NCBI GenBank assembly: GCA_003694425.1
Contig: RFJX01000260.1
Coordinates: 1 to 14,711 of the forward strand
DNA length: 14,711 bases
Source: Gammaproteobacteria bacterium
GTDB lineage: Bacteria; Pseudomonadota; Gammaproteobacteria; J113
Direction of reading: 5' to 3'
How positions within the stretch are numbered: the stretch's first letter is position 1; each line of letters begins with the position of its first letter. The notes under the pieces were generated by a model. The model was not told the DNA's origin, did not search any database, and worked only from the letters and a program-made list of their open reading frames with translations. A program made the translations under genes and the position numbers. Shown one piece after another: positions 1 to 14,711 of this stretch.

Positions 1-139
1 CCTCCCCGGTGGTGCCCAGACGGTCGGCGATCTCCGCCCAGGGCTCAGGTACCAGGGGGAATCCATCCTGCCATTCGTCCAGCAGCCGCCGGGCCAGCTC
101 CGGCAACTCCTCGACGGGGGTGACGGCTGGCCGCTTCAT
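1..139 (-). CDS. nirD: Siroheme decarboxylase subunit, NirD/NirL (Lrp/AsnC-like) family, N-terminal part
   Basis: Only the first 46 codons are in the window; the gene runs off the left edge. The visible protein begins MKRPAVTPVEELPELARRLL, followed by DEWQDGFPLVPEPWAEIADRLG. This is the N-terminal helix and first half of the winged-helix domain typical of the NirD/L/G/H proteins. In denitrifiers these decarboxylate siroheme to 12,18-didecarboxysiroheme, the second committed step of heme d1 synthesis. The start is set by a 1-base overlap, ATGA, with the nirF stop codon, so translation is probably coupled to nirF. The upstream GGA is a weak ribosome site, which fits coupling. It could be a stand-alone NirD or a NirDL fusion; the rest of the gene would decide. 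Confidence 0.8.
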   Translation of the reverse strand, partial: MKRPAVTPVEELPELARRLLDEWQDGFPLVPEPWAEIADRLGTTGE

Positions 140-1344
140 CACAGTCCGATCCGGTGGGCGCGGGCGGTGAGGAAGATCCCGCTCGGCTTCGGCACCGGCA
201 GCCGCGCCAGTTCCCCGAAGGTGGCGGTGTCGTAGACCACCACCCGGTCGTCGTCCCGGGCCGAGACCCAGACCTGTTCCCCGCGGGGGGTGAATTCCAT
301 GTGCAGCACCGCCCGGCCGGGTTTCAGCTCCCGCACCACCTCCAGGCGGTCGACGTCGATCACCTGCACGGTGTCGTTGTCGGGAAAGGCGAAGTTGACC
401 CAGACCTGGCGGCCGTCCGGACGCGCCATGGCGAAGACCGGCTGGCCGTGGAGCGCGATGCGGGTGACCTCCTTCCACTCGTGCGGGTCCACGACCAGCA
501 CGGAGTGGTGGCCGACGGCGGGGATGAAGAGGTAGTCGCCCGCCCGGGCCCACCCCTCAAGGTGGGGCATCTTGTAGACCGGCAGGGCCTGTTCCCCGCG
601 GCCGTAGTGGTCGAGGATGCGGCGCACGCCGGCCTCGGGGTGCCAGAGGTCGAGCAGGGCCAGGCCGTCCTCTCCGAACAGCCCGGCGATGTAGTAGCGG
701 CCGTCGGGGGTGATGAGCCCGTCGTAGGGCTGGCGGCCGATCCCGGGAAAGCGGGTTATGACGGGTTGACCCGGATCCCCGGCCTCGGCCAGCCAGATCT
801 CTCCGGCATCGAACAGGGAGAAGACGAAGCGGTCGCCCGGGGCATCCACCAGCCCGACGACGCGGGAGCGTTTCCCGCCCTCACCGCTGCGGGCCGGGAT
901 CTCCGCCACGGGGTCCAGGCTGGCGGCATCGAAGAGCCGGACACCTCCGGGCTCGTAGTTGGAGACGGCAATGACCCGCCCGTCCTGGGAGATGGCCCCG
1001 CCGATGCTGTTGCCCGCCTGTACGATGCGCTTCTCGACCCTGCGCCTGAGCAGGTCCACCTTGCTCAGCCCGCCGTCGCGGCCGAAGACGTAGGCGTAGC
1101 GCTCGTCACGGGAAAAGACTACCGAGGCGTGGGAGAGGTCGCCCAGCCCGTCGATGCGGCCCAGTGCGGTCCGGTGGGTGGTCTCGATCACCGTCAGACT
1201 GCCGTCGGCGCGACCGATGACCACCCCCAGGTCACCGGTCCCCCGCAGGGAGCCGGAGGCCATGCAGAGCAGGGACCAGAGGCAGAGGAGGGTGGCGGCA
1301 GGCCATCGGGGAACCCGCCTTTGCAGCAACCGGTCAGCGGGCAT
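139..1344 (-). CDS. nirF: Heme d1 biosynthesis protein NirF
   Basis: A 401-residue protein of the NirF family, eight-bladed beta-propeller relatives of the d1 domain of NirS. NirF proteins act in or facing the periplasm in late heme d1 synthesis, where they convert the tetrapyrrole intermediate towards dihydro-heme d1. Family landmarks visible are GTGDLGVVIGRADGSL (about residue 36), GLGDLSHASVVFSRD (66), FGRDGGLSKVDL (87) and GNSIGGAISQDG, followed by SNYEPGGVRLFD. An N-terminal hydrophobic stretch (about residues 17-32, AATLLCLWSLLCMASG) looks like a signal peptide or anchor. It contains LLC but not a good lipobox, because Leu precedes Cys. The ATG follows a G-rich stretch (GGGGGG, about 6 bases upstream). 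The gene overlaps nirC by 11 bp and nirD by 1 base, so the three are almost certainly one transcript. Confidence 0.95.
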   Translation of the reverse strand: MPADRLLQRRVPRWPAATLLCLWSLLCMASGSLRGTGDLGVVIGRADGSLTVIETTHRTALGRIDGLGDLSHASVVFSRDERYAYVFGRDGGLSKVDLLRRRVEKRIVQAGNSIGGAISQDGRVIAVSNYEPGGVRLFDAASLDPVAEIPARSGEGGKRSRVVGLVDAPGDRFVFSLFDAGEIWLAEAGDPGQPVITRFPGIGRQPYDGLITPDGRYYIAGLFGEDGLALLDLWHPEAGVRRILDHYGRGEQALPVYKMPHLEGWARAGDYLFIPAVGHHSVLVVDPHEWKEVTRIALHGQPVFAMARPDGRQVWVNFAFPDNDTVQVIDVDRLEVVRELKPGRAVLHMEFTPRGEQVWVSARDDDRVVVYDTATFGELARLPVPKPSGIFLTARAHRIGL

Positions 1345-1654
1345 GGATGGCCCCCCGTTGCAGCTGCTCCACCAGCCAGCGGATCTCCTCTTCCTTCAGA
1401 TAGGGGCCCCAGGGCGGCATGGCGGTACCGGGACGGCCGTCACGGATGGTCAGAAAGAGCGTCTCCGGGTCGCGTCCCTCGAGGGCCCGGGCGGTGAGCG
1501 CCGGGCCCAGCCCGCCCCTGAGGGTCCTGCCGTGGCAGGCACCGCAGTCCTCCAGCAGCAGTTCCGTCAGCCGGGCCTGGCGCCCTTCGGGCATGGGCGC
1601 GGCCGCGGCCTGAAGGGCTACCGGGAGCAGAAGGATGAGCAGGATAGGAAACAT
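1334..1654 (-). CDS. nirC: Cytochrome c55x, NirC
   Basis: A small periplasmic c-type cytochrome of 106 residues. The signal peptide is MFPILLILLLPVALQAAAAP. One heme-binding motif, CGACH, is at residues 37-41, and a likely axial Met is at 79 in GTAMPPWGPYL, which is the usual cytochrome c class I layout. NirC donates electrons in the cd1 nitrite reductase system and has been implicated in heme d1 maturation. The ATG at 1654 is preferred to an upstream in-frame ATG at 1741. The shorter form begins directly with a signal peptide and has GGAG about 7 bases upstream, while the longer form would read through the nirS-nirC hairpin. It is separated from nirS by 83 bp containing a terminator-like hairpin and overlaps nirF by 11 bp. 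Confidence 0.93.
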   Translation of the reverse strand: MFPILLILLLPVALQAAAAPMPEGRQARLTELLLEDCGACHGRTLRGGLGPALTARALEGRDPETLFLTIRDGRPGTAMPPWGPYLKEEEIRWLVEQLQRGAIHAR

Positions 1655-1673
1655 GCAGGCTCCGGAAAAGAAA

Positions 1674-1710
1674 GGTGCATGAGGGCGGGTGGGAACGCCC
1701 TGCATGCACC
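1674..1710 (-). terminator. Hairpin with T-rich tail between nirS and nirC (intrinsic terminator or attenuator)
   Basis: Read on the minus strand, GGTGCATG (1703-1710) pairs with CATGCACC (1674-1681), and AGGGCG (1696-1701) pairs with CGCCCT (1682-1687). There is one unpaired base (1702) and an 8-base loop. The 14-pair stem is followed at once by TTTCTTTTCC (1664-1673). This is the form of a Rho-independent terminator. It lies after the nirS stop and about 20 bases before the nirC ATG, so it probably reduces read-through. nirS would then be expressed far above the biosynthetic genes. It could also protect the nirS message at its 3' end. Confidence 0.8.
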
Positions 1711-1737
1711 AATTAGGAGGGAGGAAGTCAGATCCTG

Positions 1738-3526
<1,789 letters not shown>

Positions 3527-3556: not shown

Positions 3557-4465
3557 TCAGTCGCGCAGATCGGGCTCGAAGAAGACCCAGCGGACCTCGG
3601 GAAGGGCGCTGCGCAATCTGCGTTCACAGCGGTTGATCGCCTCTATCAGGGCCAGGTCGTCCGCCTGCCGCCGCATGCGTGCCTTCACCGCGACCATCAC
3701 CTCGCTGCCGAGCTGCTGGGTGATGAGGCCGAGCACCTCCTCCACCTCCTCGCAGGCCTCGAGCTCCCTGCGGATCGCCCGTTCCAGGGCCGGATCGGCG
3801 CTCTCGCCCAGGAGCAGGCTGTGCACCTCGGCCGCGACCGCGAGGGCCACGAGGATCAGCAGCACGCCGATGGCGATGCTGCCGGCGGCGTCGTAGCTGG
3901 GGTCCCCGGTCCGGATCGCCAGCAGCACCGCGAGCAGGGCGAAGGAGAGCCCGGTCAGGGCCGCCAGGTCCTCGCCCACCACCACGATCAGCTCACTGTG
4001 GCGGGTCTCCCGGAACCAGCGCCACAGACTGCGCCCGCGGCGCAGCTTCGCCACCTCCTTCAGGCAGCCGGCCAGGGAGAGGCCCTCGGCGGCGATACCG
4101 AAGGCGAGGATCGCCACTGCCACCCAGGGGTCGTGCAGTCCTTCCGCCCCCTGCAGCCGGTGGACACCCTCGTAGATCGAGAACAGTCCCCCCATGCTGA
4201 ACAGCATCAGGGCGACGATGAAGGACCAGAAATAGATCGCCTTGCCGTGCCCCAGCGGGTGCTCGGGGGTGGGCGGGCGGCGCGACTGCCTCAGCCCCCA
4301 GAGCAGCAGGAGCTGGTTGCCGCTGTCGGCCAGCGAGTGGATCGCCTCGGCCAGCATGGCGGAGGAGCCGGTGTAGAAGGCCCCGCCCAGCTTGGCCGCG
4401 GCGATGGCCACGTTGGCGGCCAGGGCGTAGAGGATCGACCTGAGGGAGTCGGCGCCCTGTGTCAT
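3557..4465 (-). CDS. Cation diffusion facilitator transporter, SLC30A9/ZnT9-like subgroup
   Basis: A 302-residue inner-membrane metal efflux protein with about six membrane segments and a C-terminal cytoplasmic domain. Landmarks are HSLADSGNQ (His43, Asp47, Asn50) in the second segment, EHPLGHGKA at 68-76 and YDAAGSIAIG at 191-200. The fifth segment carries GEDLAA (Glu165-Asp166). The usual zinc-site pattern of bacterial YiiP, Asp/His-xxx-Asp in both helices, is altered here. The EDxAA and DxxNQ pattern resembles the ZnT9-like branch, whose substrate in bacteria is poorly known. The start overlaps the cbiX stop as ATGA, with AAGGG 7 bases upstream, so the two are translationally coupled. The substrate could be Zn, Fe, Mn or Co; the link to cbiX hints at a tetrapyrrole-relevant metal, which is inference. 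Confidence 0.9.
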   Translation of the reverse strand: MTQGADSLRSILYALAANVAIAAAKLGGAFYTGSSAMLAEAIHSLADSGNQLLLLWGLRQSRRPPTPEHPLGHGKAIYFWSFIVALMLFSMGGLFSIYEGVHRLQGAEGLHDPWVAVAILAFGIAAEGLSLAGCLKEVAKLRRGRSLWRWFRETRHSELIVVVGEDLAALTGLSFALLAVLLAIRTGDPSYDAAGSIAIGVLLILVALAVAAEVHSLLLGESADPALERAIRRELEACEEVEEVLGLITQQLGSEVMVAVKARMRRQADDLALIEAINRCERRLRSALPEVRWVFFEPDLRD

Positions 4466-4833
4466 CAGGGGACCCTTGCGGCGATGTCGAGCAGCAGGTC
4501 GACCATCCCCGGTGCCTGGCCCGGGATCCCGGCAAGCCGGATCTCCAGCCCGGGATGGTCCGCCTCCAGCCTCCGCTGCAGCGCCGGCAGGTCCTCCCGC
4601 AGGTGCCGGCCCGGTGCCAGGAAATAGGGCAGGATGACCAGCCGCGTGACCCCCTCCGCGACCAGACCGGCGACCACCTCAGGGGCGGTGGGGGCGGCCA
4701 GCTCGAGGAAGGCGTGGCGCACCGCGTGGAAGCGGCCGCCGGTGCGGCTGGAGAGCCGTTCCGCGAGCTGCGCGACCGCCTCGTTCGCCTCCGGCTGGCG
4801 GCTGCCATGGGCGAGCAGCAGCAGGGCTCGCAT
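4465..4833 (-). CDS. cbiX: CbiX-type sirohydrochlorin chelatase (short form)
   Basis: A 122-residue cytoplasmic single-domain chelatase, the size of the small homodimeric CbiX type. Proteins of this family insert Co(II) or Fe(II) into sirohydrochlorin for cobalamin or siroheme. The family start LLLLAHGSR has the metal-binding His9. The second conserved histidine is His77 in LPYFLAPGRHLREDLP. The ATG has AGGA 5 bases upstream. The gene stands two genes upstream of nirS on the same strand and overlaps the cation transporter gene by ATGA. Siroheme is the precursor of heme d1, so a role as the ferrochelatase feeding the nir pathway is reasonable. A cobaltochelatase role in cobalamin synthesis is not excluded, because no other cobalamin gene is in view. 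Confidence 0.88.
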   Translation of the reverse strand: MRALLLLAHGSRQPEANEAVAQLAERLSSRTGGRFHAVRHAFLELAAPTAPEVVAGLVAEGVTRLVILPYFLAPGRHLREDLPALQRRLEADHPGLEIRLAGIPGQAPGMVDLLLDIAARVP

Positions 4834-4875: not shown

Positions 4876-6654
4876 ATGACCGGACCCGTTTCCCTGCCGC
4901 CTCAGGAGATAGCGGCACTCGAACGCCATCTTATCCACATCTACGGGGATGCGCACGCCCTCGAGCCGCTGCTGGGCAAGCTTCGCTCCCATCTCGCGCT
5001 GCACCCCCCGAGGCCCAGGCCGCACTGGAGCAACCGGGACATCCTCCTCATCACCTATGGAGATACTGTCCTCTCCCCGGACATTCCGCCGCTCAAGTCA
5101 CTCCACCGGTGGCTCTCCCGGCGCGTGGGCAAGGCGGTGAACGGAGTCCACCTGCTCCCCTTTTTCCCCTACAGCTCCGATGACGGCTTCTCGGTGATCG
5201 ACTACCGGCGCGTCAATCCAGAACTCGGCGACTGGGACGATATCCATGCCCTGGCCGGAGAGTACCGTCTGATGGTGGACCTGGTGCTCAATCACGTCTC
5301 CCGCCAGAGCCTCTGGTTTCACGACTTTCTCAACGATGTCGAGCCCTACCGCCACTTCTTCATCGAGGTGGACCCCGATGCCGACCTCTCGAAGGTGGTG
5401 CGCCCCCGCTCCACCCCGCTCGTCACCGAGGTACAGACCCATCAGGGCTACCGGTACCTCTGGACCACCTTCAGCGATGACCAGATCGACCTCAACTACG
5501 CCAATCCGGCCGTGCTGCTGGAGATGATCGACATCATGCTCTTCTATGTGACCCAGGGAGCACGCTATCTCCGTCTCGACGCGGTCCCCTACCTGTGGAA
5601 GGAGCCGGGGACCACCTGCTTCAACCTCCCCCGCACCCACGAGCTGGTCAGGCTCTTCAACCGCGCCCTGCGTATCGCCGCCCCCCACGTCTCGCTGCTG
5701 GTGGAGGCCAACGTCCCCCACCGGGAGAACATCCGCTATTTCGGTGACGGCAACGAGGCGCACATGGTCTACCAGTTCGCCCTGCCACCGCTGATCCTGC
5801 ACACCCTCAACCGGGCTGACAGCAGCCGCCTGACTGCGTGGGCGCGCCGTCTGGAGCCGCCCCCGGCCGGCTGCACCTTCCTCAATTTCACTGCCTCGCA
5901 CGACGGCATCGGGTTGCGCCCGGTGGAACGGATCCTGCCGCGGCGCGACCTGCAGGACCTCATCGATTCGATGCGCCGCTTCGGCGGCTTTGTCAGCTTC
6001 CGCTCCGACGGGGGCGACGAGGTACCCTACGAGATCAATATCTCCTGGTTCGATGCCATGGCCGGGACCCGCCGGGGCGGGGATACCCTCCAGGTGGAGC
6101 GCTGTCTCTGCTCGCAGGCGATCATGCTGGCCCTGCAGGGAGTGCCAGCGGTCTATGTCCATGTCCTGACCGGCACGCCCAATGCCTTCGACCTGGTCGA
6201 ATCGACCGGTCACACCCGATCCATCAACCGCCGCAAATGGCAGGTCGGGGAGCTCGACACCCTGCTGGACAATCGCGCCTCACTCCAGTCGAGGGTCTTT
6301 CGGGGGATGCAGAAGCTGCTGCGTATCCGTCGCGAGGCGGAGGCGATGGACCCCGAGGTGCCGCAGGAGGTCCTGGACCTGGGGCCGGCGCTGTTTGCAG
6401 TCCTGCGCCGGGCCCGCTGGTGTCGGCAGGAGGTGCTCGCCCTGCACAATGTCACCCTGCGCCCGGTGCTGGTGGACGGGGCGGCCCTGGCGGAGACGGT
6501 CAGCGACGAGGGGTGGCACGATCTGGCCACGGGAGAGCCGGTAGCCCTGTCAGGGCTGGAGGTGAGGCCCTGCCGCTATCGCTGGCTGGGACGGGTCACC
6601 CCGGGGACCTTCAGCGGCCCGGATCAGTCGTTGTCTTCCTCGACCAGGGAGTAG
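4876..6654 (+). CDS. GH13_18 glycoside phosphorylase, probable glucosylglycerate phosphorylase (sucrose phosphorylase family)
   Basis: A 592-residue cytoplasmic alpha-glucoside phosphorylase of the sucrose phosphorylase subfamily. Family motifs seen are LLPFFPYSSDDGFSVIDY (93-110), DLVLNH (135-140), YLRLDA with nucleophile Asp235, LLVEAN with acid/base Glu277, and FTASHDGIGL with stabilising Asp343. GHTRSINRRKW is near the C-terminal side. The subfamily includes sucrose, glucosylglycerol and glucosylglycerate phosphorylases. The adjacent glucosyl-3-phosphoglycerate synthase and phosphatase genes favour glucosylglycerate, cleaved to glucose-1-phosphate and glycerate. The ATG at 4876 is the first start giving the family N-terminus; longer in-frame sequence upstream runs antisense to cbiX and is not coding. 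The ribosome site is weak. The 3' end overlaps the convergent synthase gene by 31 bp. Confidence 0.87.
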   Translation: MTGPVSLPPQEIAALERHLIHIYGDAHALEPLLGKLRSHLALHPPRPRPHWSNRDILLITYGDTVLSPDIPPLKSLHRWLSRRVGKAVNGVHLLPFFPYSSDDGFSVIDYRRVNPELGDWDDIHALAGEYRLMVDLVLNHVSRQSLWFHDFLNDVEPYRHFFIEVDPDADLSKVVRPRSTPLVTEVQTHQGYRYLWTTFSDDQIDLNYANPAVLLEMIDIMLFYVTQGARYLRLDAVPYLWKEPGTTCFNLPRTHELVRLFNRALRIAAPHVSLLVEANVPHRENIRYFGDGNEAHMVYQFALPPLILHTLNRADSSRLTAWARRLEPPPAGCTFLNFTASHDGIGLRPVERILPRRDLQDLIDSMRRFGGFVSFRSDGGDEVPYEINISWFDAMAGTRRGGDTLQVERCLCSQAIMLALQGVPAVYVHVLTGTPNAFDLVESTGHTRSINRRKWQVGELDTLLDNRASLQSRVFRGMQKLLRIRREAEAMDPEVPQEVLDLGPALFAVLRRARWCRQEVLALHNVTLRPVLVDGAALAETVSDEGWHDLATGEPVALSGLEVRPCRYRWLGRVTPGTFSGPDQSLSSSTRE

Positions 6655-7835
6655 AGTTCCTCGTAGAACTCCGGAAGGGCGCTGCTGACCCGGTCCCAGC
6701 TGGGTATGAAGGGTGTCTCCATGGGATTCTCCAGGAAGGTGTCGCCGGCCCGCATGATGCTCTCGGCGAAGACTTCCACGGCCTTCTCCTCTTCATGCCG
6801 GTCCAGTCGCAGGCCGTTCATCCTGGCATCGTGGTAGTAACTGCGGATGAAGTCGAGCGCGATGCGATAGTAGGTCGCCTTGATGGTCCGGAAGGTGCCT
6901 GGCGAGAAGACGTAACCCAGGGTCGCCAGCTTGCGGAACACGGCCTTGCAGATGTCATTGCTCATCCGGGCCAGCCCGCGCTCGAAGTCTTGCTCCGAGA
7001 GCTCCTGGTGCTTGTGATCGTAGCGGTGGCTGATCTCCACCTGGCACAGGCGCTTGGTGGAGTAGTTGCGGTAGACCTCCGAGAGGATCCCGATCTCCAG
7101 GCCCCAGTCGCAGGGGATGCGCAGGTCCTGCAGGGCATAGGTCTTGATGGAGAATTCACCCGATAGCGGATAGCGGAAACTGTCCAGGTATTCGAGATAG
7201 GGCACCGGATCGAAGATGCGCCGCAGGGCGCGCAGCAGGGGGGTCACCAGGAGGCGGCAGACCCGGCCGTTGAGGCGGTTCTCCGAGAAGCGCGCGTAAT
7301 AGCCCTTGCAGAAGGTGTAGCTGAAATGGGGCTGGGCGGTGGGGTAGAGCAGCCGGGCCAGCAGGCCCCGGTCATAGGTGATGATGTCGGCGTCGTGCAC
7401 CGCCATGATCCTGCTGCGGCCGGCGGCCAGCAGGTAACCGATGCAGTACCAGACGTTGCGGCCCTTGCCGGGCTCTTCGGGCGCCAGATGTTGCTCGCCG
7501 AGTGTCCGGGCCAGGCTCTTCATGACGGGACCGTCGTGCCAGAGGATGCGATGCTGCTGCGGCAGGCGGGAGAAGTATTCGCGGGCATGGCGGAACTGGT
7601 CCTCATCGGCACGGTCCAGGCCGATGATGATCTCCTCGAGGTATTCCACCTGGCACAGGGTGTCGACGATGCTGGCCAGCGCGGGGGTCCCGAGCTCGGA
7701 GTAGAGGCAGGGGATCACCAGTCCCATGGGGCAGCGCTGGCGGTAGATCATCAGCTCCCGCTCCAGTTCTTCGACGCTGCGTTCGGTCAGGTTGTGCAGG
7801 GTGGTAACCACCCCGTTCTGAAAGAAATCGGTCAT
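6624..7835 (-). CDS. gpgS: Glucosyl-3-phosphoglycerate synthase
   Basis: A 403-residue cytoplasmic glycosyltransferase (GT81/GT-A fold) that transfers glucose from a nucleotide sugar to 3-phosphoglycerate, the first step of glucosylglycerate synthesis. The nucleotide-binding start is MGLVIPCLYSELG (37-49). The motif PGKGRNVW is at 122-129, and the metal-binding DxD is Asp148-Ala-Asp150 in AVHDADIIT. The Cys-Asp-Trp-Gly-Leu-Glu stretch and the later His-rich SHRYDHKHQ fit the acceptor and metal site of this family. The ATG has GGAGG about 6 bases upstream. It lies 83 bp downstream of the phosphatase gene on the same strand and overlaps the phosphorylase gene by 31 bp at the 3' ends. A mannosyl-3-phosphoglycerate synthase is the main alternative, but the sequence looks closer to GpgS. 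Confidence 0.88.
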   Translation of the reverse strand: MTDFFQNGVVTTLHNLTERSVEELERELMIYRQRCPMGLVIPCLYSELGTPALASIVDTLCQVEYLEEIIIGLDRADEDQFRHAREYFSRLPQQHRILWHDGPVMKSLARTLGEQHLAPEEPGKGRNVWYCIGYLLAAGRSRIMAVHDADIITYDRGLLARLLYPTAQPHFSYTFCKGYYARFSENRLNGRVCRLLVTPLLRALRRIFDPVPYLEYLDSFRYPLSGEFSIKTYALQDLRIPCDWGLEIGILSEVYRNYSTKRLCQVEISHRYDHKHQELSEQDFERGLARMSNDICKAVFRKLATLGYVFSPGTFRTIKATYYRIALDFIRSYYHDARMNGLRLDRHEEEKAVEVFAESIMRAGDTFLENPMETPFIPSWDRVSSALPEFYEELYSLVEEDND

Positions 7836-7918
7836 CCCGGTCCTCCACCTGGCGGTCGTCCTAGTATGGAAGCGGAGCGGCCATTCCGCCAGTCGTCATG
7901 CGGGATTCCCTGACCAGG

Positions 7919-8788
7919 TCAGGGCCGGTGCGAGGCCTGCCGGTCCAGTCCCAGGAGCCGCGAGAGGGCCCTGGCCCATCCTGCCGGCCCCGGTGCCGGC
8001 GCCACCACCACACCTTCCCGGCGCTGCAGCGACAGCCGCTCGCCGGCGGCCCCCGGAACGACCACCGCCACGTCGGCCAGCTCCAGCATCTGCCGGTCGT
8101 TCTCGCTGTCGCCCAGGGCAATGGATCGCACCGCGGCGCCCCGGTGCCGGGCATAGAGACCGAGCAGCCAGAGCATGGCCCGGCCCTTGTCGCAGGCCGG
8201 GTCCTGCACGTGGAGGAAGCGCCCACCGCGGACCAGTTCCAGCCCCTCCTGGCGGAGGAGCTCCCGGAACCGATCCAGTCGCGCGGGACTGTCCTTCCAC
8301 TCCAGGGGCTCGCTTGCCTGGCGCCTCAGGGCGAGGGCGGCGGCCTCCGGATCGAGGCCGGTGATGGCGGCGAGCCGCCCCGGATCGAGGTCGTGGAATG
8401 CGCGGAAGCGAAAGCCGTGTTCCTGCCGCAGTCGACCCAGCACGGTCAGGATCTCCGTTCGCTGGCGGGCGGGTGCGTACTGCCATACCCCCCGGGAGCG
8501 GACACAGCCGGCCCGGGCCGGCTCTTCTCCCAGCAACCCCTCCGGTATCAGTATGGCGGCTCCGTTCTCGACGATGTAGGGGTCCCGATTGCCCAGGTCC
8601 CGGCGCAGACGCTCGACCTCGGCCCGGGTCTTGCTCGAAGCGAAGACCACCGGGATGCCAAGTTCCCGCAGCCGCTGCAGGAGAGGCTGCGCGGGGTCGC
8701 AGCGATAGTTCCCGTCCAGCAGGGTACCGTCGAGATCGGTGAATATCACCGTCTCGGCCTGTGCCATTGGCTCTCCGGTTTCCTTCAT
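7919..8788 (-). CDS. HAD-IIB phosphatase, glucosyl-/mannosyl-3-phosphoglycerate phosphatase family
   Basis: A 289-residue haloacid-dehalogenase phosphatase. Motif I is FTDLDGTLL (nucleophile Asp18, general acid Asp20), motif II is ASSKTRAEVE, the motif III lysine is in ACDKGRAM, and motif IV is GDSENDRQML. FASSKT and IVENGAAI are characteristic of mannosyl-3-phosphoglycerate phosphatases. Beside gpgS, the likely job is removal of the phosphate from glucosyl-3-phosphoglycerate to give glucosylglycerate. Two starts are possible. The ATG at 8788 has GGAGG 10 bases upstream. The ATG at 8767 has GGAG 5 bases upstream and would shorten the leader before motif I to the usual length. The gene begins a two-gene leftward operon with gpgS and diverges from the DUF4197 gene. 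Confidence 0.87.
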   Translation of the reverse strand: MKETGEPMAQAETVIFTDLDGTLLDGNYRCDPAQPLLQRLRELGIPVVFASSKTRAEVERLRRDLGNRDPYIVENGAAILIPEGLLGEEPARAGCVRSRGVWQYAPARQRTEILTVLGRLRQEHGFRFRAFHDLDPGRLAAITGLDPEAAALALRRQASEPLEWKDSPARLDRFRELLRQEGLELVRGGRFLHVQDPACDKGRAMLWLLGLYARHRGAAVRSIALGDSENDRQMLELADVAVVVPGAAGERLSLQRREGVVVAPAPGPAGWARALSRLLGLDRQASHRP

Positions 8789-10422: not shown

Positions 10423-11504
10423 TCCCGCGATTTCTCCGCCGCGGGACCGGTACTCCCGGGCTGCTGGCCGGCACGCTGCTGGCACTGGTGGCCGGCACTC
10501 CGGCATTCGCCGGGTCGGAGTGCCCCGAGGCGACTCCCGCCACCTTCAGGCCCGGTACCTTCTCCATCATCTTCGAAAACGATCTGTTCGCCGATCGCGA
10601 CGAGAACTACACCAACGGGCTGCAGCTCGGCTGGGTCTCCGGCGACCTGAGCGCCTACCGCGACGACCCTCGCCTGCCGGACTGGAGCCGCCCGCTGATC
10701 GAACACCTGCCCTTCATCCACGACTGTGGCCTGCAGCGCAGCGTGGCGCTGGCGCTGGGCCAGAAGATCTTCACTCCCCGGGACATCTCCCGGCGTGACC
10801 TGATCCGGGACGACAGGCCCTACGCCGGCTGGCTCTACGGCAGCGCCGCCTTCCACAACAAGAACATCGACCGGCTGGACACGGTGGAGCTGCAGCTCGG
10901 GGTGGTGGGGCCGGCGGCACTGGGCGAGCAGGCGCAGAACACGGTCCACCGCCTGCGCGGGATCCCCACCGCCAGGGGCTGGTCGAACCAGCTGCACAAC
11001 GAGCCGGGGCTGATGCTGATCTACGAACACAAGCGCAGGCTGCTGCGCGGCGAGACGGGATCGGGCTGGGGGATGGACGTGATCGGGCACTTCGGCGCCG
11101 CCCTGGGCAACGTCCATACCTATCTCAGCAGCGGGATGGAGGCCCGCGTCGGCTGGAACATCCCGGCCGATTTCGGCACCTCGCTGATCCGTCCGGGCGG
11201 CGAGAACAGCGCCCCGGTGGACAGCAACGCCCCGCGCTACCGGGCCCGCCAGCGTGCCGGCTTCCACGCCTTCGCCGCGGTCATGGGGCGGGCGGTGCTG
11301 CGCGACATCTTCCTCGACGGGAATACCATCGGAGACTCCCATTCGGTGGACCGGCGCAGCGTGGTCGGGGACCTGGTCACCGGTTTCGGCCTCACCTGGC
11401 GGGGAGTCAAGCTGACCTATGCCCGGGTCTTCCGCACCCGGGAATTCGATGGCCAGGAACATGGCCACCGGTTCGGTTCACTGAGTCTGTCGTTCTCCCT
11501 CTAG
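10419..11504 (+). CDS. LpxR-family outer-membrane lipid A 3'-O-deacylase (DUF2219), probable CTG start
   Basis: A 361-residue outer-membrane barrel protein of the LpxR family, which removes the 3'-linked acyloxyacyl group of lipid A. Near the N-terminus is FENDLFADRDENYTNGLQLGW, carrying the conserved Asn-Asp (54-55). Further on, GWSNQLHNEPGLML supplies the conserved His and Glu. Both agree with the calcium-dependent active site of Salmonella LpxR. The first ATG/GTG/TTG in frame is a GTG at 10488, which would cut off the signal peptide. Starting at CTG 10419 gives MIPRFLRRGTGTPGLLAGTL, then LALVAGTPAFA, a complete signal peptide. This CTG overlaps the mscS TGA as CTGA and has GGGGAG about 8 bases upstream. 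If the CTG is wrong, the fallback is 10488-11504. Catalytic activity in this species is inferred. Confidence 0.85.
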   Translation: MIPRFLRRGTGTPGLLAGTLLALVAGTPAFAGSECPEATPATFRPGTFSIIFENDLFADRDENYTNGLQLGWVSGDLSAYRDDPRLPDWSRPLIEHLPFIHDCGLQRSVALALGQKIFTPRDISRRDLIRDDRPYAGWLYGSAAFHNKNIDRLDTVELQLGVVGPAALGEQAQNTVHRLRGIPTARGWSNQLHNEPGLMLIYEHKRRLLRGETGSGWGMDVIGHFGAALGNVHTYLSSGMEARVGWNIPADFGTSLIRPGGENSAPVDSNAPRYRARQRAGFHAFAAVMGRAVLRDIFLDGNTIGDSHSVDRRSVVGDLVTGFGLTWRGVKLTYARVFRTREFDGQEHGHRFGSLSLSFSL

Positions 11505-11521
11505 TCGGGAAGCAAAGCCCT

Positions 11522-12328
11522 TCAATCGAGGGCGTCGGGGTGGAACAGCTGCTCCCCGTGCAGGCGGTACTCGGCGATGATGCGCTGCCCCTCCGGGCCG
11601 GTGAGGAAGTCGATGTAGGCCCTGGCAAGATCGACCTGGACATCGGGATAGCGCTGTGGGTTGACCATCATCACGTGGTAGGGGTTGTACAGCAGCGGAT
11701 CGCCCTCGAACGCGATCTCCAGGTCCAGTCGGTCCTTCATCGCCAGCCAGGTCCCGCGGTCGGTCAGGGTATAGCCCTGCTTCTCGCTGGCGATCTGCAG
11801 CGTCGCGCCCATGCCCTGACCCACGGAGAGGTACCAGCGGCCGGAAGGGTTGATACCGATCTGCCTCCACAGGGCGATCTCCTTCTTGTTGGTCCCAGAA
11901 TCGTCGCCCCGGGAGATGAAGGCGTTGCGCACCGCCGCCAGCCGCTTGAGCGCGGCGGCGGCCGATTTCTGCTGCCTGAGGCGGGCCGGATCGGACTTCG
12001 GTCCGACGATGACGAAGTCGTTGTGCATCACCGGCCGGCGGTCGACGAAGGCCCCCTCCGCGAGGTAGCGCTCCTCGGCCTCGGGGGCATGGACCAGCAC
12101 CACATCGACATCCCCGTTCGCCCCCAGCCGCAGGGCCTTGCCGGTGCCCACCGCGATCACGTCCACATGACAGCCGCACTGCTTCTCGAATACCGGGTTG
12201 AGCCGATCGAGCAGCCCGGAGTTCAGGGTGCTGGTGGTGGTCGCCAGCCGCAGCCGCGGCACCGGCTCTCCCGCCTGGACCGCCACACCGATGACCAGCG
12301 ACGTGATCAGTACGAAGATTCGTTTCAT
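11522..12328 (-). CDS. tupA: TupA-type periplasmic tungstate/molybdate-binding protein
   Basis: A 268-residue solute-binding protein with signal peptide (MKRIFVLITSLVIGVAVQAG). The oxyanion-binding TTTST is at 30-34 (LATTTSTLNSGLL). Other TupA landmarks are VGTGKALRLGANGDVDVVLV and HAPEAEE, HNDFVIVGPKSDPARL, and SRGDDSGTNKKEIALWRQ (139-156). TupA proteins bind tungstate very tightly, and some bind molybdate, for delivery to a TupBC ABC transporter. The family usually has His after SGT; here it is Asn147. No permease or ATPase gene adjoins: an outer-membrane porin gene lies upstream and a convergent gene downstream. The ATG has GGGAG 8 bases upstream. The reading of specificity as tungstate rather than another oxyanion is family-based inference. 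Confidence 0.88.
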   Translation of the reverse strand: MKRIFVLITSLVIGVAVQAGEPVPRLRLATTTSTLNSGLLDRLNPVFEKQCGCHVDVIAVGTGKALRLGANGDVDVVLVHAPEAEERYLAEGAFVDRRPVMHNDFVIVGPKSDPARLRQQKSAAAALKRLAAVRNAFISRGDDSGTNKKEIALWRQIGINPSGRWYLSVGQGMGATLQIASEKQGYTLTDRGTWLAMKDRLDLEIAFEGDPLLYNPYHVMMVNPQRYPDVQVDLARAYIDFLTGPEGQRIIAEYRLHGEQLFHPDALD

Positions 12329-12352
12329 TGCAGATTCTCCCGTCTGGTTGAA

Positions 12353-12391
12353 CAGCTATCGGCCATCAGCTTTCAGCATTCGGCAATCGGT
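12353..12391. repeat. Degenerate 7-bp tandem repeats in the tupA-porin gap
   Basis: The 106-bp gap between the porin and tupA genes (12329-12434) contains a run of heptamers. The first unit is partial (CAGC), followed by TATCGGC, CATCAGC, TTTCAGC, ATTCGGC and AATCGGT. The shared pattern is WWTCRGC on the plus strand, or GCYGAWW on the minus strand; CATCAGC departs from it at its first base. It lies upstream of the tupA ribosome site, in the leader or promoter side. Similar short heptamer runs are scattered through many proteobacterial genomes without known function. Confidence 0.7.
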
Positions 12392-12407
12392 CAATTCAGA
12401 TTTTACA

Positions 12408-12433
12408 GGTCGGCCAGGGTGTCTATACCGACC
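12408..12433 (-). terminator. Weak hairpin after the porin gene
   Basis: Just past the porin stop codon, the minus strand reads GGTCGG (12428-12433), 14 bases, then CCGACC (12408-12413). The stem is only six pairs, the loop is long, and the following bases (TGTAAAATCTG) are not a proper T-tract. It may be a poor terminator or an RNA-stabilising structure, or nothing. Confidence 0.3.
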
Positions 12434-12434
12434 G

Positions 12435-13784
12435 CTAAAACTCCACCTGCGCGCGCAGCGACAGCACCCCGGGCTCGTCCCCGTCGTGGCTGCCACCCTG
12501 CACATCCAGCATCTGTACGTAGTTCGCCATGAAGCGCAGGTTGGGGACAGGGTACCAGTTCACCCCCGCGGTGAAATTCCGTTCCTCGCCACCGGCGATG
12601 TCCTCGTCGCTGAGGTCGATACCACTGTAGCGCAGGCCGATTTCCCAGGCCCCCCAGCCGCCATCGCCGACAGACGCCTTCGGCGTGACGGCGGCGAACC
12701 TGCCTTGGCGGTAATGGCGCGACTCGCCGGTCAGGAACCAGCTCCCCTCCAGGTACCAGCCATCGAAGTAGGGATCGCGCCTTCCGGGCTGTGCACGATC
12801 GACGGCCACGCCCATGTACTCACCCTGCAGGTTGAAAGGTCCGTGGACCCAGGAGACCTCGGCGCCGAAACGCAGCAGCGAATCGGCATCGAAGTCGCCG
12901 GTATCGACCAGTTGCACCCCCGCACCGTGGGCCTCCGGCCGGGTACGGAAGCGCAGGGTCGAGCCGCTGCCGGTGTCGCGCCAGGAGGCCGAAAGACCCA
13001 GATGCAGCAGGTTGCCGTCGCTGTACAAGGGCAGGAAGGTGGCGCGCCCGGAAACTGCGTAACCCTCTTGTGCGGTGGCGACGGCCGGCTTGCCGACCCC
13101 CTCACCGAAGAGCCCGACGGCGGCGCTCCAGCGCAGGCCGGCACCGCTCCATCCCAGTCCGATGGCGCGCCCGGGGCTGAAGGCCTCGGGCAGGGCCCGC
13201 TCGATGAAGGTGACGTATTTGGAGCTGGTCTGGTCATCCAGCGACCAGGGCTCCTTGAAGTGGCCCATCTTCACGGAGCCGAGCGGCAGAGCGGTGTAAC
13301 CGATCCAGGCATCCTTGATCCCGGCCCGGCCGGTATTGACGAAATCGTATTGCAACTTGTAGTCCCAGACCCGCCACAGGGTCCCGCTGGCGAACAACCG
13401 CGCACGCCGGATTTCGCTGCCGCCGCCCATTTTCGCCACGTCGCTGTCGAAGGCGTCGTAGTCGGCCTGGACGCGGCCGCCGATGCGGGTCCTGAAGGCG
13501 CCATCGGGGCTGCGGAACTCCAGCCGGCCCCGCTGATCGATGGTGGTCATGGAGGGTTCCGCGGCCCGGTTGTCGGGCTTCTTCGTTGCCACCTGCCGCA
13601 GAGGCTGATGTGCCAGTCGAGCCTCGATCGCCGCGCGCATGGTCCGGTAGGCCTCGTCACTCAGGGTCCCGTTGTCGTGCAGCAGCCGCGTCAGGACCAG
13701 CAGCGGGTCTTCCGTTGCCGGCGCCGCGGCTGCCAGGATGCAGAGGGGGAAGAGAGCAGCGAGGCGGGATGAAATATGCAACAT
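12435..13784 (-). CDS. Porin O/P-family anion-selective outer-membrane porin
   Basis: A 449-residue outer-membrane barrel. The signal peptide is MLHISSRLAALFPLCILAAA, with probable cleavage near PATEDP. A short helical N-terminal part (LTRLLHDNGTLSDEAYRTMR) precedes the barrel, as in OprP/OprO relatives. Barrel landmarks are GRLEFRSPDGAFRTRIGGRV, RRARLFASGTLWRVWDYKLQ, FVNTGRAGIKDAWIGY and GHFKEPWSLDDQTSSKYVTF, then ERALPEAFSPGRAIG. The last residue is Phe (LSLRAQVEF), the usual barrel assembly signal. The ATG at 13784 has AAGGA about 8 bases upstream and starts the signal peptide; a start at 13832 would add 16 unneeded residues. It lies between a TupA-type gene and a divergent oxyanion-type regulator. 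This suggests entry of tungstate, molybdate or phosphate; the family alone only implies an anion channel. Confidence 0.9.
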   Translation of the reverse strand: MLHISSRLAALFPLCILAAAAPATEDPLLVLTRLLHDNGTLSDEAYRTMRAAIEARLAHQPLRQVATKKPDNRAAEPSMTTIDQRGRLEFRSPDGAFRTRIGGRVQADYDAFDSDVAKMGGGSEIRRARLFASGTLWRVWDYKLQYDFVNTGRAGIKDAWIGYTALPLGSVKMGHFKEPWSLDDQTSSKYVTFIERALPEAFSPGRAIGLGWSGAGLRWSAAVGLFGEGVGKPAVATAQEGYAVSGRATFLPLYSDGNLLHLGLSASWRDTGSGSTLRFRTRPEAHGAGVQLVDTGDFDADSLLRFGAEVSWVHGPFNLQGEYMGVAVDRAQPGRRDPYFDGWYLEGSWFLTGESRHYRQGRFAAVTPKASVGDGGWGAWEIGLRYSGIDLSDEDIAGGEERNFTAGVNWYPVPNLRFMANYVQMLDVQGGSHDGDEPGVLSLRAQVEF

Positions 13785-13862
13785 TGTTCTTATCCTTCTT
13801 GGCTGGAATCGATAGTGTAGCCAAGCTATCATGGTTCAGTTCCAGCTAAAATATGAACTAAT
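13785..13862. promoter_or_regulatory. AT-rich divergent control region with overlapping inverted repeats
   Basis: This 78-bp spacer separates the porin and regulator start codons and is far richer in A+T than its surroundings. It holds several overlapping dyads: GCTGGAA (13802-13808) with TTCCAGC (13840-13846); GATAG (13811-13815) with CTATC (13826-13830); TAGC (13818-13821) with GCTA (13825-13828); and GTTCA (13834-13838) with TGAAC (13854-13858). TAAAAT at 13847-13852 is a good -10 for the regulator, without a clear -35. ATCGATAG and CTATCAT are loosely like the ends of ModE boxes. It is the probable operator for the divergent regulator. Confidence 0.55.
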
Positions 13863-14711
13863 ATGCCGAAAAGAGTCCGCCTTGGCCTGGATTGGCAATT
13901 TGACGGGATCGGCGGGGGAGGGCGGGATGCGCTGCCGCGTCTGCTTGCCGCCATCGAGGAGAGCGGCACCTTGCGCGAGGCGGCTCAGCGCTGCGGTGTC
14001 TCCTACCGTCACGGCTGGGGCCTGCTGGAGCAGGCGCAGGCCCGGTTCGGCCAGCCGGTGGTCCACCTGAGCAGGGGCCGTGGCAGTCGGCTGACCCCCC
14101 TGGGAGAGCTGCTGTTGCGTCACTACCGGCAGGTGGAAGGCCGGTTGCATCCACAGCTGCAGGAGCTGGAACACCGGCTGGAGGCCGAACTGGAGGGTCT
14201 GCTGGCAGGGAGTGACCGTGAGGGGATCCGCATCGTCGCCAGTCACGACATGGGGTTGCTGGCCTTGCGGGACCTGCTGTCCGGTGAAGTTGCCGGGATC
14301 CGGCTTGAACTGAGCTTTCGGGGCAGCCTGGAGAGCCTGCTGGCCTGGCGGCGGGGTGAAGCGGAGCTGGCGGGATTCCACCTGCCCATCGGGGGCCTCG
14401 GGCGCGGGCTCATCCCCGATTACCGATCGCTGCTCGATCCGCAGACCGACTGCCTGTTGTCGCTGGCGCGGCGGGAACAGGGGCTGATGGTGATGCCCGG
14501 CAATCCGTTGGCCATCGGCGGGCTGGCCGATCTCTCCCGGCCGGGGTTGCGCTTCATCAATCGTCAGCCCGGCTCAGGCAGCCGCCTGCTGCTGGATCGC
14601 CTGCTGCGGGAGGCCGGTCTATCGGGCGGGCGGATCTGTGGTTACGACAATGTCGAGTTCACCCATCTGGCGGTGGCCGCCCATGTGGCCGGCGGCGGCG
14701 CGGATGCCGGC
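13863..14711 (+). CDS. ModE-type HTH regulator with TupA/ModA-like (PBP_like) ligand domain, C-terminus cut off
   Basis: At least 283 residues, open to the window edge. Residues 22-95 form a ModE/LysR-like winged helix: LLAAIEESGTLREAAQRCGV, then SYRHGWGLLEQ, and later SRLTPLGELLLRHYRQ. After a charged helix (about 95-115), residues 120-283 form a periplasmic-binding-protein-like sensor of the PBP_like family. Landmarks are GIRIVASHDMGL, LAGFHLPIG, FINRQPGSGSRLLLDRLLRE and FTHLAVAAHVAGGGADAG. Such proteins resemble ModA/TupA without a signal peptide and are thought to sense molybdate- or tungstate-like ligands in the cytoplasm. An in-frame stop at 13854 forces the start at 13863 or later. No ribosome site precedes the ATG. 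Divergence from the porin gene and closeness to tupA suggest that it controls both. Confidence 0.88.
   Translation, partial: MPKRVRLGLDWQFDGIGGGGRDALPRLLAAIEESGTLREAAQRCGVSYRHGWGLLEQAQARFGQPVVHLSRGRGSRLTPLGELLLRHYRQVEGRLHPQLQELEHRLEAELEGLLAGSDREGIRIVASHDMGLLALRDLLSGEVAGIRLELSFRGSLESLLAWRRGEAELAGFHLPIGGLGRGLIPDYRSLLDPQTDCLLSLARREQGLMVMPGNPLAIGGLADLSRPGLRFINRQPGSGSRLLLDRLLREAGLSGGRICGYDNVEFTHLAVAAHVAGGGADAG

Follow-up and report, generated by a model that had tools for sequence, protein, structure and literature searches.

Does tungstate or molybdate have a dedicated and regulated route through the outer membrane? Uptake of these oxyanions is mostly described from the periplasm inward, and outer-membrane passage is usually left to general porins. 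The question is raised by a locus in a Gammaproteobacteria bacterium (GenBank assembly GCA_003694425.1, contig RFJX01000260.1) in which the gene for a Porin_O_P outer-membrane barrel and tupA, encoding a TupA-type periplasmic oxyanion-binding protein, lie in tandem on one strand, with a regulator gene, here called REG, divergent from the porin gene. This arrangement had been proposed in an earlier, sequence-only reading and was confirmed by open frames and domain matches (Table 1). The window analyzed is the whole contig (C72, 14,711 bases) of an assembly of 2.08 Mb and 301 contigs that is 76% complete, labeled G000 below. Judged from sequence, the three genes probably form one regulated unit that acquires tungstate, and possibly molybdate. 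The porin would pass the oxyanion through the outer membrane, TupA would capture it in the periplasm, and a TupBC-type ATP-binding cassette (ABC) permease encoded elsewhere would carry it inward. REG would bind ATATG-N10-CATAT-type sites in the divergent junction and adjust both its own expression and that of porin-tupA to the oxyanion sensed by its binding-protein-like domain.

To find out whether the trio is conserved together, the test on which the sequence-only reading had staked itself, we searched 369 sampled gammaproteobacterial genomes. TupA was found in 93 genomes and the porin in 67 (both at E ≤1e-30), and REG in 22 (E ≤1e-25). The arrangement REG-porin-tupA occurs in six genomes of four families (G000, G002, G363, G159, G065, and G139), split in G139 over two contig ends. 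Porin-tupA without an adjacent REG was found in G197, G084, and G208, the porin following tupA in the latter two, and the porin gene is divergent to tupBCA in G173 and G090. In eight genomes, drawn from four families, porin and tupA are immediate neighbors on a single contig, against about 0.03 expected; this rough figure ignores relatedness and is based on 1.5 porin copies and 3000 genes in each genome. As the window is a single contig of an incomplete assembly, a chance neighborhood or assembly artifact was considered; it was rejected as having negligible probability, refuted by a gene order that recurs in independent assemblies of other families with porin protein identities of 41-49%.

Table 1. 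Features of the three-gene locus and its divergent junction, in window coordinates.
Feature	Position	Strand	Basis
tupA, TupA-type periplasmic oxyanion-binding protein, 268 aa	11522..12328	-	PF12849, NF041772, solved-structure matches
Porin_O_P outer-membrane barrel, 449 aa	12435..13784	-	PF07396 249.6 bits, 7.8e-74; OprP 2o4v 6.2e-33
REG regulator, ModE/LysR-type helix-turn-helix + PF12727 sensor, 283 residues present	13863..14711	+	domain matches
Operator-like site ATATG-N10-CTTAT, 9/10 positions	13774..13793		motif scan
Weak second operator-like site, left half ATATG intact, 7/10	13851..13870		hand count

The channel position is filled by more than one type of barrel. An Alginate_exp barrel lies upstream of tupA in G118, G234, G184, and G043; the first three have the order REG-alginate-type barrel-tupA, and no REG was seen beside the barrel-tupA of G043. 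In G331, barrel, tupA, tupB, and tupC follow one another on one strand. In G027, an Alginate_exp barrel is divergent to tupBCA-REG, a position taken by a Porin_O_P gene in G173, a member of the same family. PF13372 was scanned for G118, G234, G043, and G027; the G184 and G331 barrels were assigned by similarity, and the G184 match comes in two segments and the gene may be disrupted. In total, at least 17 of the 93 TupA genomes have an outer-membrane channel gene next to tupA or to the operon that contains it (Porin_O_P in 11, Alginate_exp in 6). This is a lower bound because alginate-type barrels were sought only in fetched neighborhoods, while porin linkage was taken from coordinates in all 93 genomes. 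The occupation of one slot by two barrel families is our chief reason for considering the channel relevant to the binder; the two are different Pfam families, with remote kinship among barrels possible. Linkage and the two families thus support the dedicated outer-membrane oxyanion route of the sequence-only reading, with transport itself a prediction. A possible further channel link, left out of the count, was seen in G154 (locus L072, 1567-4384, minus strand), where tupA precedes a gene judged by eye to be ModA-like and a weak match to Porin_O_P (29% identity).

The porin may instead be an anion channel of general or phosphate type under shared REG control, in which case TupA would be specific and the channel would add little for tungstate. 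The porin family is named for phosphate, the window porin keeps R34, R59, and R60 of OprP, and tup-linked and pho-linked porins are close in the tree, from which two duplicate porin rows were left out. The OprP/OprO constriction residues (Y/F62, Y/D114, K121) are replaced in the window porin by R, K, and D, respectively, and all four aligned pho-linked porins likewise differ from OprP at these positions. A tup-specific residue signature in the constriction was considered and rejected, as the OprP sites do not separate the two groups; the sequence therefore does not fix what the window porin passes, and tungstate is its presumed substrate. Four supported groups of tup-linked porins appear in the tree, without a resolved order among them. 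Against a phosphate role, another Porin_O_P gene of the window genome lies on contig C179 beside PhoB-, PhoR-, and PhoU-type genes and groups with the pho-linked porins (support 97/91), and a different barrel family occupies the same slot in six genomes (G118, G234, G184, G043, G331, and G027). We regard this explanation as rather unlikely. Elsewhere in the porin family, a single chain of 786 residues (P0102) combines Porin_O_P, PF03150, and cytochrome c (PF00034) domains.

The binding protein matches PF12849 (E 1.2e-45), and its nearest solved structures are 3muq, 3lr1 (tungstate-binding), and 5my5. The excerpt available of the work on Desulfovibrio alaskensis TupA (PMC5517513) gives the tungstate-contact residues as a TTTS motif, H59, R118, T124, and D170. 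Mapped from that source, all are kept in the window TupA, as T30-S33 (TTTS), H80, R140, T146, and D190, and the contact H, R, T, and D are invariant across all 54 aligned rows, in which the window protein is counted twice. TupA relatives were also sought in viral contigs, where none was confirmed.

As to which oxyanion is acquired, the window genome has a separate ModABC, with ModA and ModB above the NCBI cut-offs, as well as nine PF00384 matches (two short) and one AOR-family match. The AOR family usually comprises tungsten enzymes. AOR was found in 46 of the 93 TupA genomes compared with 5 of the 276 genomes without TupA. By these sequence criteria the balance leans to tungstate, with molybdate also possible. 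A unit mainly for molybdate, with tungstate incidental, would fit the presence of moaC and moaE beside the cassette in G002, G159, and G363 (Pfam check for G002), three genomes outside the set of 51 with AOR, and the occurrence of REG sites before formate-dehydrogenase-type genes, which may use either metal. According to the same excerpt, TupA proteins also bind molybdate with a nanomolar dissociation constant (PMC5517513). A mainly molybdate function is opposed by the genome's own ModABC and by the way in which TupA tracks AOR over the class, and we consider it distinctly unlikely.

The absence of a permease gene noted in the sequence-only reading holds for the contig, where tupA does not share an operon with tupB and tupC and neither gene is present, but not for the genome: on contig C126, fdhD is immediately followed by the start of a TupB-like gene that the end of the contig truncates. 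The G+C content of the four window-genome contigs examined is alike (0.665-0.674). Separation of this kind is recurrent: nine porin-tupA genomes have no linked tupBC (G000, G002, G065, G139, G159, G197, G363, G084, and G208), and all nine have one TupA each and tupB elsewhere. In G002, G065, G139, G159, G197, and G363 the unlinked tupB is adjoined by tupC, and a TOBE domain was detected in the G002 and G065 ATPases. The TupAs of the window and six relatives share a supported branch (97/93; 14 rows, 10 channel-linked) in a tree whose "no channel" labels were only partly checked, and the unlinked TupB of six of the seven cassette genomes in this TupA clade also falls in one clade. A TupBC-type partner is what we infer for the window genome; either the matching tupBC belongs to the quarter of the genome that the assembly lacks, or TupA's partner has been exchanged.

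Alternatively, TupA might not belong to an importer in the window genome, acting with the porin as an orphan buffer, scavenger, or signaling protein. The nine genomes without linked tupBC would allow this, as would the origin of the window genome's only TupB in another clade and the channel-linked TupA that G118 and G234 keep besides a full tupABC. The presence of tupB elsewhere in every one of the nine, the single clade holding six of seven unlinked TupBs, and the unbroken channel, tupA, tupB, tupC row of G331 oppose it and make it very improbable. At the C126 locus (L040, 4732-6083), no tupA separates fdhD from the tupB directly behind it, while G177 (L052) has fdhD, tupA, tupB, and tupC, in this order. 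The tupA gene may have been lost from the locus on C126.

Because the window is the whole contig, the REG frame runs off and its 3' end is lost. The sensor matches PF12727 PBP_like (2.7e-43), the HTH_1 match sits exactly at the cut-off (26.6 bits), and the ModE_repress match (TIGR00637) reaches 43.4 bits, below the cut-off of 98.5. No LysR_substrate match was found in the window protein. Within the 283 residues present there is no match to a MOP/TOBE domain at E ≤0.001, PF12727 standing there instead. The lost end is covered by relatives only: the L043 protein has PF12727 and no TOBE, and the near relatives P0122 and P0123 have 361 residues. For a structural model of P0122, full-length LysR proteins top the Foldseek list with TM scores of 0.4-0.5. 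The idea that the regulator carries the same kind of ligand domain as TupA survives at the fold level and not at the family level, as the Pfam families differ (PF12727 versus PF12849). We infer both the sensor ligand, an oxyanion, and the sign of regulation. The family counts at least 670 proteins at E ≤1e-20, named in their sources as ModE-like protein, putative molybdopterin biosynthesis protein, or with generic regulator names, and REG co-occurs with TupA in 19 of the 22 REG genomes of the sample. REG homologs without an adjacent tupA were seen by eye near ModA/ModB-like or formate-dehydrogenase-like genes at L153 (G084), L156 (G142), L157 (G271), and L151 (G106). At L114 of G084 (10745-11656, minus strand), a gene adjoining the unlinked tupBC has, also by eye, a REG-like sensor and an excisionase-type DNA-binding-like N-terminus. 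A 1999 study of fdsR in Ralstonia eutropha reportedly may concern a REG relative.

REG-channel junctions carry a 20-bp palindrome, ATATG-N10-CATAT, which is often doubled. Over nine junctions, a spacer of 10 scored 84 of 90, other spacers tested scored 63-73, and none of 300 shuffles reached 84; the window contributed 6/10 to this score, its region having begun at 13785 and so excluded the site at 13774. Eight of these nine junctions had served for choosing the motif by eye, so held-out loci provide the independent test. Of 19 held-out REG loci (L077, which contains no REG, was left out), 11 have a site of at least 9/10 in the promoter of REG or of a tup operon that includes REG; 307 kb contained 17 such sites, 14 of them at the expected promoters. 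The held-out loci include one on a Halomonas plasmid and one from Aquabacterium olei, in which REG and a molybdopterin oxidoreductase gene are transcribed divergently. The REG-type operator also precedes genes for molybdenum or tungsten enzymes, namely this oxidoreductase gene and an fdsG-like gene in G120 whose best named model is the formate dehydrogenase gamma subunit (165.7 bits, cut-off 198). Three perfect sites were found in the 3.7 Mb of G120: two lie 16 bp apart where the fdsG-like gene begins, and the third lies at REG/tupB.

Paired operator sites 65-98 bp apart are common, with one over or just before the REG start. In the window, the stronger site overlaps the porin start codon about 70 bp before REG and is the only window site of at least 9/10, with 0.006 expected from the junction's own composition. 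The weaker one, below the 9/10 threshold, lies over the REG start in the position of the REG-proximal site of relatives. The conserved pair of operator sites across the junction lends support to the earlier suggestion of self-regulation. The porin frame is open to 13832 (12435-13832, minus strand), and the start at 13784 is preferred for a signal-peptide-like start judged by eye. The palindrome GATAG-N10-CTATC (13811-13830) was our first guess for the window operator and was dropped. No sigma-70-like promoter was found in 11450-14000, and the window gave no match to Rfam at gathering thresholds.

Several observations weigh against a dedicated tungstate unit under REG control. The OprP constriction residues give no separation between tup-linked and pho-linked porins, and AOR is not enriched with channel linkage (8 of 17 channel-linked versus 38 of 76 other TupA genomes). 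The window TupA scores 237 bits against the NCBI TupA equivalog model NF041772, below the cut-off of 400, and is called "TupA-type" for this reason; the cut-off is a naming rule, and the TupB of G002 is also under its own (185 versus 320). In the TupB tree, the single TupB of the window genome does not share a clade with those of the six cassette relatives. The best fold rows for the REG sensor are phosphate- and molybdate-binding proteins, with TupA lower; these rows come from Foldseek and VIA-align only, and other families may also match. Eight of the 19 held-out REG loci have no site at the expected promoters, and the window genome has three sites with at most one mismatch, as many as a reversed-pattern control. 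Among the unlinked tupBC loci of cassette genomes, only that of G139 has a site just upstream of tupB (9/10, about 56 bp before it); G002 has a site only in a distant gene, and none was found at the loci of G065, G159, G363, and G197 or the cut C126. Weighed together with these points, the sequence-only reading is partly supported: the trio is a conserved unit with a regulated junction and a likely outer-membrane step, its function being predicted throughout.

Comparison with known systems sets the locus apart in several ways. With TupABC, for example of D. alaskensis (PMC5517513, excerpt), it shares the TupA fold, the TTTS motif, and the equivalents of H59, R118, T124, and D170, as well as a TupB-type permease in the genome; unlike in TupABC loci, the window tupA has no tupBC beside it and is linked instead with an outer-membrane channel gene and a divergent regulator. 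The window porin shares family and R34, R59, and R60 with the phosphate/pyrophosphate porins OprP and OprO (2o4v, 4rjw), from which it differs at positions 62, 114, and 121 and in being tupA-linked rather than pho-linked. REG resembles ModE in its helix-turn-helix and in lying divergent to group-6 oxyanion genes. It differs in having a PF12727 sensor in place of MOP/TOBE, and its operator differs in sequence and spacing from the Escherichia coli ModE consensus, ATCGNTATATA-N6-TATATANCGAT, given in the excerpt of PMC545781. With LysR-type regulators (8sbf and others), the P0122 model would share, in its overall architecture, the helix-turn-helix, linker helix, and two-lobed sensor.

Split binder and permease genes have a parallel in Geobacter bemidjiensis, where modB1C1 lies apart from modA1; the excerpt of that report mentions no channel gene or REG (PMC2996986). 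An outer-membrane partner for a group-6 oxyanion binder is also found in the type VI secretion system (T6SS)-ModA-IcmP molybdate uptake of Pseudomonas aeruginosa, which, as described in an excerpt, uses a secreted ModA and a metalloproteinase-type outer-membrane protein, whereas the window has a channel gene in tandem with tupA (PMC8602904). The moeA1-mobB-tupBCA cluster of M. extorquens likewise ties tup genes to tungsten-cofactor genes; it differs in holding a complete tupBCA, and the word porin is absent from the text available (PMC13197769).

Within the open-licence literature of PubMed Central, we found no paper on a tungstate- or molybdate-linked outer-membrane porin and none on the ATATG-N10-CATAT operator. 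We tentatively propose, as a reading that could well fail, that the locus represents dedicated, REG-controlled outer-membrane tungstate pores of two barrel families coupled to TupA, and that REG is a new class of one-component tungstate/molybdate sensor whose operator also governs formate dehydrogenase genes. The conserved channel-binder cassette makes a dedicated outer-membrane step testable and suggests a regulated, dedicated entry for a scarce metal, and the operator offers a way into the study of a widely distributed family of regulators.

The remainder of the window holds other genes. The placement next to anaerobic respiration genes proposed earlier was loosely worded: cytochrome-d1-type genes are present at 139-3447, about 8 kb away, where two cytochrome-d1 proteins and a small c-type cytochrome are encoded in a row on the minus strand, nitrite-reductase-like. 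A CbiX gene lies at 4465-4833. Clustered at 4879-8788 are genes for sucrose-phosphorylase-like (GH13), glucosyl-3-phosphoglycerate synthase-like, and mannosyl-3-phosphoglycerate phosphatase-like proteins, which probably serve glucosylglycerate metabolism. An LpxR-type outer-membrane gene (PF09982; 10488-11504, plus strand) is convergent to tupA, and an LpxR gene is also found near tupA in G065 (L044, 12620-13576) and G197 (L211, 3410-4453), which belong to the same genus.

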